Shown here: one piece after another, positions 21,382-44,618 of the stretch
Numbering within the stretch: the stretch's first letter is position 1
Layout: each line of letters begins with the position of its first letter
From: Haloterrigena gelatinilytica
Lineage (GTDB): Archaea; Halobacteriota; Halobacteria; Halobacteriales; Natrialbaceae
Assembly: GCF_013342145.1 (NCBI RefSeq)
Contig: NZ_JABUQZ010000001.1
Span: forward strand, 2,604,001 to 2,668,000
Length of the DNA stretch: 64,000 nt
Direction: 5' to 3'
Program-made: the position numbers and the translations under genes
The notes under the pieces: generated by a model
What the model was told of the DNA's origin: nothing
The model's input: only the letters and a program-made list of their open reading frames with translations
Database searches by the model: none

Positions 21382-22722
21382 CGCTCGTATCCGTATCCGG
21401 TACCGTTGTCAAGCGGCCTGCTCGCAGCGTAGACACTCCGGTACCGAATTCGACCCTTCGACGTCTACCGGCTATCGAGAGCACCGTTGTCCGACAATTT
21501 GTTTACAGCGGCACTCCGTATTCCGTCTTCGTTACTTTGCCCGAATCGAACGGTCGCTATCGTCTGGGTTTACAAGCATACTTTCGTAATAGTACGGGCC
21601 GTGAAGAAGCGTGTTCCAATATCATTGGAAATTCGGTGGCGTTGTCGATCGACTCCGCGAGTCGGCATCGTTCGTTCGTCGGGCGACGGCTCCCGCTCGA
21701 GGACTCGACGGCACGAACAGCGGCCCCGCTCTCTGATCGGACTGTCGAAGTAGAGAAATACGGAAGCGATGGATCTGGCCCAGATACGGGATCGCCTAGA
21801 ACCCAAACTCGTTCGTGTCTGGTCGAAGTCCCTAGTGGACACGCCCAACGAAGCTGATAATCCGTTACTATCAGTCTCTGGCACAGCCAATGGAGGCGAT
21901 ACGTTCGGATCGTTCATGTGTGCCACGAGCACCCACTGGTGTATCACAGCCCCGACGAGTTAGGCGAATTCGCGACTCGGCGGTACGAATCCGGCAGGCA
22001 ATTATCGACGAGTTCGAGATATACGGAGTATTGCTCGATCGGTACTGTGTCATCTGCTTGTCGATCACCGGTTACTGTCGTCTCTATATCTCGTTTCTCA
22101 CTGCAACCGTTGCGTTCGAGTCCCGCGATCGCGTTCGGACCGTTCTCGCACCGAGTTCACCGAACCGGTTTCCGGACGTTCTCACCGTCGAAACCGGAAG
22201 CGACCGCCAAACCGTCTCTCGGAACGGAATCGGTACTCGTGGCGAAAAGATATAGCACTATTTGATTTACCACTCGATTCGTCTGCCACTCCCGCTGATC
22301 GAGGGTAGCTCGAGGGAGCCCGACCGGTCCACTCGAACCACAGCAGAAAAACCACAAGCTCTGAAATCGATCATACCAGGGCTCTCAAATCGTACGTCCG
22401 GCCGTGTGCAAGGCGAACAATTATTTGTACGGCCGCTAAAGCCGCCGTATGCGACTTTTATATCTGTGGCAATCACAAATTACAAAAGTACCTCTGTAAT
22501 CTATCGTATCGATTACGTACATAATACATCCTACAAAATGTCTCTCGGTCCCGGTACTACCGCCGATTCACACACGTTCTATCTGTGATGTTTCGGCCTT
22601 CCGACAATGAGGTGAGGCGGTGTGCCGGAACCTCGCGCTGGTTCGTTCCGAATCTGAACCCTAGTCTCCGGGGACGACGAGGATCCGAACGTTTTTCGTC
22701 TCCTGACGACTATACGAACGTA
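21382..22722. other. 1.3-kb gene-poor, AT-richer region upstream of rdfA
   Basis: No protein-coding gene could be supported. Several short frames exist, but they lack the C/G third positions and acidic bias of true genes here. The segment from about 22430 to 22590 is notably AT-rich (for example AATCACAAATTACAAAAG). A tRNA T-loop-like string near 22108 is not backed by the rest of a cloverleaf. The region may be a scar of a mobile or horizontally acquired segment carrying rdfA and the SMC-like gene, but no terminal repeats were recognised. Confidence 0.45.
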
Positions 22723-23370
22723 GTGACCGATCGTTCCAGTTCGACTGATTCGGAGGCGGTGTGTACGTGCAAGCTCGGGCGGGTCGCGACGCAGTACGAG
22801 CTCGCGGGTCTCAACGACGACCTGGTCGCCTACTGGACTGGGGACGGAGACGACCAGCGCAGCACGCGCGAGCTCGCGACGTACGTCAATCACCGCGTGC
22901 TCGAGGCGGCGCTCGAGGAGGCGGACATCCCGCCCAAAGAGGGAGAGGTCGAGAACACCTATCGACTGTTGACCGACGACGACGTCAGTAGCGGGACCCG
23001 GGTTCAGACCCGAAACGAGCTCCAGCGGGACGGCGTTCCGATCGACCGAGTCGAGTCGGATTTCGTCTCCCACCAGACGGTCTACAACCACCTTACCGAC
23101 TGTCTCGGTGCGAAACTCGAGACGCCGAGCGATGAAGAACGGCTGGAGAGAAGCAGCGAAAAGCTCGGTGCGTTACAGAATCGGACTGCGGCCGTTACGG
23201 CGGACACCGTCGCCCAACTCGAGCGCAACGAGGTCGTCGCCATCGGCGACTTCGACGTCACCGTCTCGGTTACGGTGACCTGTGAGGACTGCCTGCAGGA
23301 GTACACCATCAGGGAACTCCTCGAGAACCGGGCGTGTGATTGTCACGCGTCGGACGCGGACGGCGCATAA
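22723..23370 (+). CDS. rdfA: Rod-determining factor RdfA
   Basis: A 215-residue haloarchaeal protein matching the family I know as RdfA, a factor required for rod-shaped cells in Haloferax volcanii. The recognisable text is CKLGRVATQYELAGLND, STRELATYVNHRVLEAAL, VENTYRLLTDDDVSSGTRVQ, and SDFVSHQTVYNHLTDCLG. The C-terminus adds a cysteine cluster (CEDCLQEYTIRELLENRACDC, i.e. CxxC...CxC) that could bind zinc. The GTG at 22723 was chosen because family similarity begins just after it; an ATG-led extension to 22588 is possible. It is followed 90 bases later by the SMC-like gene, an association typical of this family. Confidence 0.82.
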   Translation: MTDRSSSTDSEAVCTCKLGRVATQYELAGLNDDLVAYWTGDGDDQRSTRELATYVNHRVLEAALEEADIPPKEGEVENTYRLLTDDDVSSGTRVQTRNELQRDGVPIDRVESDFVSHQTVYNHLTDCLGAKLETPSDEERLERSSEKLGALQNRTAAVTADTVAQLERNEVVAIGDFDVTVSVTVTCEDCLQEYTIRELLENRACDCHASDADGA

Positions 23371-23460: not shown

Positions 23461-25421
23461 ATGGAACCTGGACTGGATACGAAACAACGAGACATTCCGG
23501 GGGCGGCCACCCTTTCGGTCGATAACATCGGGGGTATCGACGAAACGGAGGTTACGTTTCACCGCGGGGTGACGGTGCTCTCCGGTCGCAACGCGACCAA
23601 CCGAACATCGCTGCTGCAGGCGATCATGGCGGCGCTCGGAAGCGAGCAAGCGAGTCTCAAAGCCGACGCCGACGAGGGCCACGCGGTCCTCGAGTTCGGC
23701 GACGAGACGTACCGGCGGACGCTCGAACGACGGGGCGGAACGATCGTTACCGACGGCGATCCGTATCTCGACGATCCGGAACTCGCCGATCTGTTCGCGT
23801 TCCTGCTCGAAACCAACGAAGCGCGACAGGCCGTCGCCCGCGGCGACGACCTCCGCGAACTGATCATGCGGCCGGTCGACACCGACGCGATCAAGGCCGA
23901 AATCGAGCAGTACGAACAGCAGAAACGCGAGCTCGACGAGCGGCTGTCCGAACTCGACGATCTCGAGAACCGGCTGCCCGACCTCGAGGCGAAACGGACG
24001 CGTCTCGCCGACGAGATCGAGTCGCTTCAAGAGGACCTCGAAGAGGCCCGCGAAGAACTCGAAGAGACGAACGTCGACGTCGAACAGCGTCGAGAGGAAG
24101 AGTCCGAACTCGAGGAGAAACTCGCGGAGCTTCGCGACACTCGCTCGGAGCTCGAAACCGTCCGCGACCGCATCGAGACCGAACGCGAGAGTATCGAGGC
24201 TCTCGAGGACGAACGCGACGAGGTCGAGGAACGTCTCGAGTCGCTCTCGTCGGGCGACGAGACGGAGGTCAGCCGCCTCGAAGCCGAAATCGACACCCTC
24301 CAGACGAAGAAGGCGGAACTCTCCGACGAGATCTCGCAGCTACAGAGTACGATCCAGTTCAACGAGCAACTGCTCGACGAACAGGAATCGGTCCTTCCGG
24401 ACGCCGCCACTGAGGACGATGACGGCCCGGTTACGGATCAGTTGCTCGCGGACTCGGAGTCGGTCACCTGCTGGACCTGCGGCTCGTCGGTTCCCCGCGA
24501 CCAGATCGAGACGACGATCGAACAGCTCCGGTCCGTCCGACAGGAGCGCATCGAAGAGCGCTCCGAGATCAGCTCCGAACTCGACGAGCGCCGGGAGACG
24601 CTCTCGGAGATCAACGAGAACAAGACCGAGTACCGGCAGACTCAGCGTCGCCTCGACTCGATCGACGACGAACTCGACCGGCGACAGGGCCGGCTCGACG
24701 ATCTGATCGACGACCGCGAGGCCCTCACCGAGGAGATCGACGATCTCGAGACGACGATCGACGACCTCGAGACCGACGACTACAGCGGCGTCCTCGACCA
24801 GCACAAGGAAGTCAACCAGCTCGAGTTCGAACTCGAACGCAAGGAGCGCGAGCGCGAGGAGATCGACGACGAGATCGACGAGATCGAACAGCGCCTCGAC
24901 GACCGCGGCAATCTCCAGGAGCGTCGCGAAGACATCACCGACGAGCTGACGGATCTCCGGACGCGCATCGATCAGATCGAGGCCGACGCCGTCGAGGGTT
25001 CAACGAACACATGGAGAACCTCCTCGAGGCGCTGGGTTACGATAACCTCGACCGAATCTGGATCGACCGGACGCGCCGCGAGGTCCGCGAGGGTCGCCGG
25101 AAGGTCGAGCGATCGTCGTTCGACCTCAAAATCGTCCGCAGTACCGACGAGGGCGCGGCCTACGAGGACACGATCGGGCACCTGAGCGAGAGCGAACGAG
25201 AGGTGACCGGTCTCGTGTTCGCGCTCGCGGGCTATCTCGTCCACGACGTCTACGAGACGGTCCCGTTCATGCTGCTCGACTCCCTCGAGGCGATCGACTC
25301 CGAACGGATCGCCAAGGTCATCGAGTACTTCGAGTCCTACGTGCCGTATCTCGTCGTGGCGCTGCTGGACGAGGACGCGCAGGCCGTCGACGTCGAGCAC
25401 GAGGTCGTCTCGGACATCTAA
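23461..25421 (+). pseudogene. Archaea-specific SMC-related ATPase, interrupted by a frameshift
   Basis: Reconstructed, this is a ~653-residue Rad50/SMC-like protein. The N-terminal ATPase lobe is at residues 15-135, with a degenerate P-loop GRNATNRTSL (42-51) in place of GxxGxGKS. A long charged coiled coil runs through about 155-520, interrupted by a zinc-hook-like CWTC (337-340). The C-terminal lobe contains FMLLDSLEAID (Walker-B-like) and VVALLDEDA. Near 24996-24999 one base is missing: GTCGAGGGTTCAACGAACAC reads correctly as VE(x)FNEHME only if a base is restored after GAGG. Without it the frame runs on to a stop at 25185 with an Arg/Ser-rich, non-halophilic tail. This is either a real recent inactivation or a base-call error. 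Confidence 0.8.
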
Positions 25422-42278: not shown

Positions 42279-44618
42279 TTAGCGAACCGAATCGAGCAGC
42301 AGCTTCTGCTCGACGCGCTTGACTTCGTGCTGGACGTCGCGGACGGCGTCGATGTTCGCCGAAATCGACGTGACGCCTTCCTTGGCGAGGAACTGGACCA
42401 TCTCCGGCTTGGAGCCGGCCTGGCCGCAGATGCTGGTGTCGACGTCGTGTTCGCGGCAGGTCTCGATGACGTCGCCGATCAGTCGCAGGACGGCCGGGTG
42501 GAGTTCGTCGAACCGGTCGGCGACGTGCTCGTTATTGCGGTCGACCGCGAGCGTGTACTGGGTGAGATCGTTCGTCCCGAAGGAGGCGAAGTCGATGCCG
42601 GCCTTGGCCATCTCCTCGACCGACAGCGCCGAAGCCGGCGTTTCGATCATCGCACCCCAGCGGCGCTTCTCGGGGTCGATGCCGGCCTCCTTCATGAGCG
42701 ACTTGGCCTGATAGATGTCCTCGGCGTCGTTGACCAGCGGGAACATGATCTCGACGTTGTCGTAGCCCATCTCGAAGAGCCGCCGGAACGCCTCGAGTTC
42801 GTGGGCGAAGACGTCGGGGCGGTCGAGCGACCGCCGGATGCCCCGATAGCCGAGCATCGGGTTGTGCTCCTTCGGTTCGTCCGCGCCGCCCTCGAGTTGA
42901 CGGAACTCGTCGGTCGGCGCGTCCAGCGTGCGCACGCGGACGGGCCGGGGTAGAACTCGTCGGCGACGCCGCGGATGCCCTCGACGAGCTCCGTGATGTA
43001 GGCGTCCTCGCCGTTCTCCGCGATGAACTTCGCGGGCGTCTGATTCAGCGAGAGGATCATGTGCTCCATGCGGAGCAGGCCGACGCCGTCGGCGCCGGTC
43101 GCCGCCGCGCGTTCGGCGGCTTCCGGAATCGAGACGTTGACCTTGACCTCGGTGGCGGTCATCGGCGACTGGCGACTGCGGGCGGACCTCCTCGACCGGT
43201 TCGGTCTCTTCGTCGGGCTCGACTTCCGTCCCTCGAGGACGGCACCCTTGTCGCCGTCGAGCGTGACGAGTTGGCCGTCCTCCAAGACGGTCGTCGCGTT
43301 CGTCGTGCCGACGATGGCCGGAACGCCGAGTTCGCGGGAGACGATGGCGGCGTGGCTGGTCATGCCGCCCTCGTCGGTGATGATCCCCGAGGCTCGTTTC
43401 ATCGCGGGGACCATGTCCGGCATCGTCATCTCCGTGACGATGATGTCGCCCTCGCCGACCTTATCGAGGTCGTCGAGCTTTTGACGATCCGGGCGGCCCC
43501 GCTGACCGTCCCCGGACTCGAGCCCAGGCCGTCGACGATGACCTCTCCGGAGGCGTCCGAATCCGAACTCGAGGACTCGCTGCCGCCGGCGGCCTGCACG
43601 CCGCCGCTGCCGTCGGTCAGCCCCTTCGAGGCGTCGACGCTGCCGGTCGCCTCGGATGCGGTGGCCCCGCCGTCGCTCTCGTCGATGGTGGTGATCGGCC
43701 GGGACTGGAGCATGTAGACCTCGCCCTCGACGATGGCCCACTCGACGTCCTGGGGCTCGCCGTAGTGGTCCTCGACGCGCTCGCCGAGGTCCATCAGGGC
43801 GCCGATTTCGTCGTCGGAGAGGACCCGCTCGTTTCGCTTGTCCTGGGGCACCTCGCTCTCGACGGTCTCGCCGGTCTCCTCGTCCTTTTCGTGCATCACC
43901 TTCTTCTCGGCGACGGTGACGTCGATATTGCGGTCGTCGCGCTCGACGACGTAGTTGTCCGGGGAGACCGCACCCGAGACGACGCTTCGCCCAGTCCCCA
44001 GGCGGCCTCGATGATCATCGTCGGGTCGCCCGTCGACGGGTGGCTCGTGAACATCACGCCCGATTTTTCGGCGTCGACCATCTGCTGGACGACGACCGCG
44101 ATGTTCACCGCCGAGTGGTCGAAGCCCTGCTCCTGGCGGTAGTAGATCGCCCGCTGGGTGAACAGCGAGGCCCAGCACTCGCGGACGCGATCGAGCAGCG
44201 CCTCCTCGGTGACGTTGAGGAACGTCTCCTGTTGGCCCGCGAAGGAGGCGTCGGGCAGGTCCTCAGCCGTCGCCGACGACCGCACCGCGACGAACGCCTC
44301 GCCGTCGCCGACCTCCCGATAGGATTCGAGGATCTCCTCGCGCAGCTCGTCGGGGAACGGCGTCTCGAGGATGAGTTCTTGGGCGCGGTCGGCGGCGTCG
44401 GCCAGCGCCGACGAGTCGTCGACGTCGACGTCGACCGCTTCGAACAGTTCCTCGTCGATTTCGGCTTCTTCGATGAACGATCGGTAGGTCCCGGCGGTTA
44501 CGACGAATCCCGGGGGCACGGGCAGCCCGGCACCCGTGAGTTCGCCCAGGGAGGCTCCTTTGCCGCCGACCTTCTCGAGGTCGCCGGCACTGATCTCGTC
44601 CAGCCAGAGTACAGCCAT
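42279..44618 (-). pseudogene. ppsA: Phosphoenolpyruvate synthase with multiple frameshifts
   Basis: Reconstructed, this is a ~780-residue pyruvate, water dikinase (pyruvate + ATP to PEP + AMP + Pi) feeding gluconeogenesis. The ATP-grasp domain starts MAVLWLDEISAGDLEKVGGK and includes VAVRSSATAEDLPDASFAGQ. The phosphohistidine domain has GGMTSHAAIVSREL. The C-terminal PEP-binding barrel has SFGTNDLTQYTLAVDRN. The reading frame breaks near 43983 (GAAGCGTC lacks a G), 43479-43482 (AAAA for AAAAA), 43226 (CGGAA for CGGGAA) and 42947-42950 (CCCC for CCCCC). A 7-bp duplication at 43165-43178 restores the frame after the third. No other damage is seen, so it is recent loss or a sequence-quality artefact. 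Confidence 0.9.

Follow-up and report, generated by a model that had tools for sequence, protein, structure and literature searches.

The closest described relatives of the gene studied here are the archaea-specific SMC-related proteins (ASRP/Sph) of haloarchaea, defined by the NCBIfam model NF045487 and including H. volcanii Sph3, HVO_2175 (PMC9389158). In H. volcanii, rdfA and sph3 form a pair, and deletion of either gene leaves disk-only, non-motile cells with no growth defect (PMC10869688). The sph mutants of this species survive poorly in a gene-conversion assay, and the paralogues sph2 and sph3 have opposite effects on cell shape (PMC11276520).

We analysed a stretch of 64,000 nucleotides (the window) from a Haloterrigena genome of 4.55 Mb in 3 contigs. 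It encodes an ASRP with the N-lobe, coiled coil, CWTC zinc hook, C-lobe with a Walker-B-like motif and adjacency to rdfA seen in the described proteins, but this copy is one base short and is split over two frames. As in the H. volcanii rdfA-sph3 pair, the two genes are adjacent and RdfA is intact, a likeness that implies no orthology to one Sph paralogue; unlike in that pair, the ASRP is broken. In its one-base loss from a G run within otherwise conserved sequence, the gene also resembles frameshifted pseudogenes and the homopolymer indel errors of prokaryote assemblies, and we found no difference from these.

One ASRP gene in two frames

Positions 23461-25421 of the window encode a haloarchaeal ASRP/Sph as one gene in two frames. 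The initial annotation, made from the DNA letters, had described an archaea-specific SMC-like gene with a frame break next to rdfA; both the gene, whose two parts split at position 478 of the NF045487 model, and its RdfA neighbour are borne out, and the break lies where it had been placed. The features of the pair are as follows.

22768-23346, forward strand: complete RdfA (rod-determining factor A) domain, Pfam PF21811 positions 1-195 of 195, E 1e-73
23461-24996, forward strand: original-frame part of ASRP, with N-lobe, degenerate Walker A GRNATNRTS, coiled coil, CWTC zinc hook and returning coiled coil (NF045487 1-478, translation)
24996-24998, forward strand: GGG run, the missing-base site, GAGGGTTC here, where the nearest relatives have GAGGGGTTC or GAGGGATTC
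24999-25421, forward strand: ASRP C-lobe in the shifted frame, with the LSESE signature, the Walker-B-like FMLLDSLEA and an internal ATG at 25011 (NF045487 478-593)
25000-25185, forward strand: out-of-frame tail of the truncated protein, 61 codons and a stop (translation)

The RdfA domain sits in an open reading frame at 22585-23370 and is the only RdfA match of the genome (G000:C1:2626768-2627346, G000 being this genome); the ASRP gene follows directly. Membership of the ASRP family is decided by the first-frame part alone, which scores 494.5 bits over model positions 1-478 with a cut-off of 300, and the second-frame part completes the model (positions 478-593, 186.8 bits). Read from 23461, the protein runs MEPGLDTKQRD...DQIEADAVEG, continues for 61 out-of-frame residues and ends at the stop at 25183-25185, for a product of 574 aa. 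The orthologous continuation, FNEHMENLLEALGY...VVSDI, occupies the frame that starts at 24999 and ends at 25421. GRNATNRTS (from residue 42) and CWTC (337-340) are encoded before the break, LSESE and FMLLDSLEA after it, in agreement with the earlier claim that the break precedes the Walker-B lobe. Walker A and Walker B are therefore both encoded but in different frames, and the product is without the C-lobe. Although the gene belongs to the ASRP family, the protein it now encodes would fall short of a complete ASRP.

The zinc hook (CxxC) lies in the middle of the coiled coil, with helices predicted on either side in the intact orthologue. The structure predicted for the intact H. salina protein has confident coiled coils and a poor head (mean pLDDT 69), so we used it solely for placing the break, which falls in the last coiled-coil helix before the C-lobe (residues 482-525 of that protein). 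A search of solved structures with the family profile returned weak coiled-coil matches and nothing more.

The Walker A sequence GRNATNRTS (23584-23610 here) is invariant in the clade of rdfA-linked ASRP genes (orthologues L003-L045 and L127-L141), with Lys replaced by Arg and Gly by Asn, and the clade's Walker-B-like motif has DS instead of DE. GKSS or NKSS occurs in other ASRP subclades, and in none of those read does Glu follow the Walker-B Asp. Judging from these motifs, the rdfA-linked clade may lack the usual mode of ATP hydrolysis.

The missing base in related genomes

Comparison with orthologues had been proposed as a check of the lesion. We compared the gene with those of five congeners, H. 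salina JCM 13891 (G001), H. salifodinae ZY19 (G002), strain KLK7 (G003), H. turkmenica DSM 5511 (G004) and H. alkaliphila (G005), and it is unbroken in all five. In the DNA alignment, with opposite-strand rows taken as reverse complements, the four nearest orthologues (93-97% identical around the break) are longer by exactly one base (352 vs 351), which upholds the claim of a single missing base, and flank identity at the break site is 1.0. The site reads GAGGGGTTC in both H. salifodinae and H. turkmenica, GAGGGATTC in H. salina and GAGGAGTTC in strain KLK7, compared with GAGGGTTC here, and the junction-spanning peptide of the full-length protein is ...EADAVEGFNEHMENLLEALGYDNLDR. The initial annotation had proposed a change from GAGGAG to GAGGG. 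The one-base loss stands, but the ancestral sequence does not: two relatives have GAGGGG and one has GAGGGA, GAGGAG being restricted to the more distant KLK7. From these sequences, the simplest event is most likely the loss of one G from four (GGGG to GGG); an origin from GAGGAG is possible yet less likely, since it requires the more distant state.

More broadly, 61 related genomes hold 97 ASRP matches above the curated cut-off, and 92 of these are complete in one open frame, by a hand count of full-model matches. The five incomplete ones are this gene, two partial matches in G020, a fragment in H. turkmenica (G004:C4) and a match in G054:C41. A break at this site is confined to the present gene.

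Could the full protein still be made by programmed -1 frameshifting, the third explanation raised at the outset? A ribosome slipping back one base after GGT would read ...VEGFNEH, which is the orthologous sequence. However, a search of the last part of the frame found no slippery heptamer of the X XXY YYZ type, making recoding unlikely, and the frame is continuous at this site in all relatives, leaving nothing conserved as a recoding signal. We regard programmed frameshifting as extremely improbable.

RdfA and ASRP each occur once in this genome, compared with 2 to 5 RdfA matches in the congeners. Rescue by a paralogue is thus ruled out, and if the lesion is real there is nothing to replace the lost partner. 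The earlier suggestion that RdfA would then act without its SMC partner therefore holds more strongly than it had been put.

Two other degraded loci came to light in the congeners. On a plasmid of strain KLK7 (L062:8483-11050), in a mirror image of the present case, a second ASRP is intact beside a degraded copy of rdfA; the intact pair of this strain is on the chromosome. In H. turkmenica, a 197-aa open frame (G004:C1:2389451-2389957) fuses an RdfA piece, its first 88 positions, to an ASRP piece, the last 73, and is apparently the deletion remnant of another pair.

Constraint on the gene and a test for base loss in the assembly

Where H. salifodinae and H. turkmenica agree, changes can be assigned to the branch leading to this genome. 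In ASRP they number 4, 1 and 21 at codon positions 1, 2 and 3, with 1, 0 and 4 of them after the break. Only 5 of 26 thus fall at positions 1 and 2, and the neutral expectation of 2/3 is rejected (p 9e-7). The relaxed constraint expected of a pseudogene whose loss is fixed is absent, although a very recent loss is still compatible with the counts. Constraint on both sides of the break indicates that the lesion is either recent or an artefact, and the codon-position pattern cannot separate these two.

Constraint in both halves despite the broken frame would also be explained if the break were real and both halves were made and used, with the truncated hook-and-arms N-part and a C-lobe started from the ATG at 25011 joined without a peptide bond. 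The C-lobe frame reaches this ATG after 12 bases, and Rad50 heads are known to assemble from lobes that are expressed separately. However, the same ATG is an ordinary Met codon in the intact orthologues and is thus not a new feature, and the first-frame stop lies ~174 bases downstream of it, so simple stop-start coupling is absent. No relative among the 61 genomes has a gene split at this site. Such a two-chain ASRP appears very unlikely.

If the break were an artefact, the initial annotation had reasoned, the assembly would likely have lost bases elsewhere. We examined 464 kb of this genome around the window, about one tenth of the total, together with the syntenic stretches of H. salifodinae and H. 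turkmenica, and counted clean, lineage-specific, frame-breaking indels in genes defined via codon-position substitutions between the other two genomes. There are 7 such events in 3 of 232 genes of this genome, 1 event in 217 genes of H. salifodinae and 3 in 194 of H. turkmenica. One of the three genes here, for a thermosome, was dropped because its lesion (at 2584458) is a start-site artefact that precedes the gene's likely true start, which leaves ASRP and ppsA as the only truly broken genes. Of 1,691 coding homopolymer runs of at least 4 bases in the 464 kb, four have lost one base in this genome alone, one in ASRP and three in ppsA. Broken genes are about as rare as in the two relatives, so there is no general deficit of bases in the assembly; the prediction of further losses fails in this sample and assembly-wide base loss is rejected. 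The second broken gene is as follows.

42306-44612, reverse strand: ppsA (phosphoenolpyruvate synthase), TIGR01418 matches in four pieces

This gene had been said to carry the same kind of change four times. It is indeed broken, but by five deletions (1, 2, 1, 1 and 1 bases) within ~1 kb (about 42947-43984), two of which cancel to -3. On the same branch, ppsA has 9 substitutions at codon positions 1 and 2 against 41 at position 3, which is still a constrained pattern. In the noncoding DNA of this branch, the ratio of indels to substitutions is ~0.05 when counted in a relaxed way and 0.008 when counted strictly. At a ratio of ~0.05, at least five indels would arise by chance with a probability of about 1e-4 to 1e-3, given 9-15 neutral changes. 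With five deletions, few amino-acid-changing substitutions and a low noncoding indel ratio, ppsA is poorly explained by slow decay and better explained by a problem with the local consensus or by a burst of mutation. The gene is the only one in this genome for a PEP synthase of the full-length kind, two or three of which occur in four of the five congeners.

At a distance of 18 kb, the state of ppsA somewhat raises the chance that the ASRP lesion is also an error. In that case the organism would have the base, sequencing or assembly would have dropped it along with those of ppsA, and the gene would be intact and ordinary. We give this consensus error not quite an even chance. Both halves of the gene are constrained, ASRP is the sole copy of a widely kept pair, and the clustered ppsA deletions accompany few amino-acid-changing substitutions, set against the noncoding ratio of indels to substitutions (~0.05). 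All four of the one-base contractions in coding runs of at least 4 bases fall within 18.5 kb, but three of them are in ppsA alone, which makes the clustering weak evidence for an error in ASRP. Furthermore, ~1,687 other coding runs of this kind in the 464 kb show no one-base shortening, and ~230 other genes are unbroken. A four-base homopolymer run is easy for most sequencing platforms.

A possible recent loss of the SMC-like partner

So, is the base missing from the organism? A recent real mutation and a local error are about equally likely. To the reading that an ordinary haloarchaeal ASRP/Sph, the partner of RdfA, lost one base very recently on this strain's own branch we assign an even chance. 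In favor of it, an otherwise identical site is one base shorter than in the nearest orthologues, and the rarity of frameshifted genes in the sampled 464 kb fits an isolated true mutation. On the other hand, the constraint on ASRP is as expected of a gene that is intact in life, the sole other truly broken gene is the nearby ppsA, hinting at a local consensus problem, and every event is a deletion, mostly in homopolymers.

Should the deletion be present in the organism rather than in the assembly alone, a short G run would have become one base shorter, most likely GGG in place of GGGG, and the ribosome would read 61 wrong codons and then stop. The product would retain the N-lobe, the zinc hook and both coiled-coil arms and would be without the C-lobe that carries the signature and Walker-B-like motifs. 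SMC and Rad50 heads require both lobes. By analogy, a complete SMC-type head would not form and the truncated protein should be inactive. H. volcanii cells lacking sph3 are viable and show no growth defect (PMC10869688), so such a loss could be tolerated.

A base that is truly missing would mean the natural loss of the only SMC-like partner of an intact RdfA in a coccoid genus, and a small natural test of RdfA acting alone. A base that is not missing would mean that the gene annotation is to be corrected. Whichever is true, the gene pair is a known one whose sole ASRP has a one-base lesion, and the case is ordinary and minor. The useful negative finding is that the sampled assembly shows no general shortage of bases.

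If the mutation is real, effects on shape, swimming or gene conversion may follow. The earlier suggestion that cell shape may be altered is in line with the disk-only cells of the H. volcanii sph3 deletion. However, published descriptions of Haloterrigena give coccoid or oval cells, either motile or non-motile (PMC8530250), and for H. turkmenica also rods (PMC3035258). Because Haloterrigena with intact pairs are already coccoid or oval, and because the sph paralogues act in opposite directions, the prediction of a shape change is weak. Loss of swimming genes was considered as a correlate and rejected: archaellin-family genes are present in this genome, as they are in its relatives.
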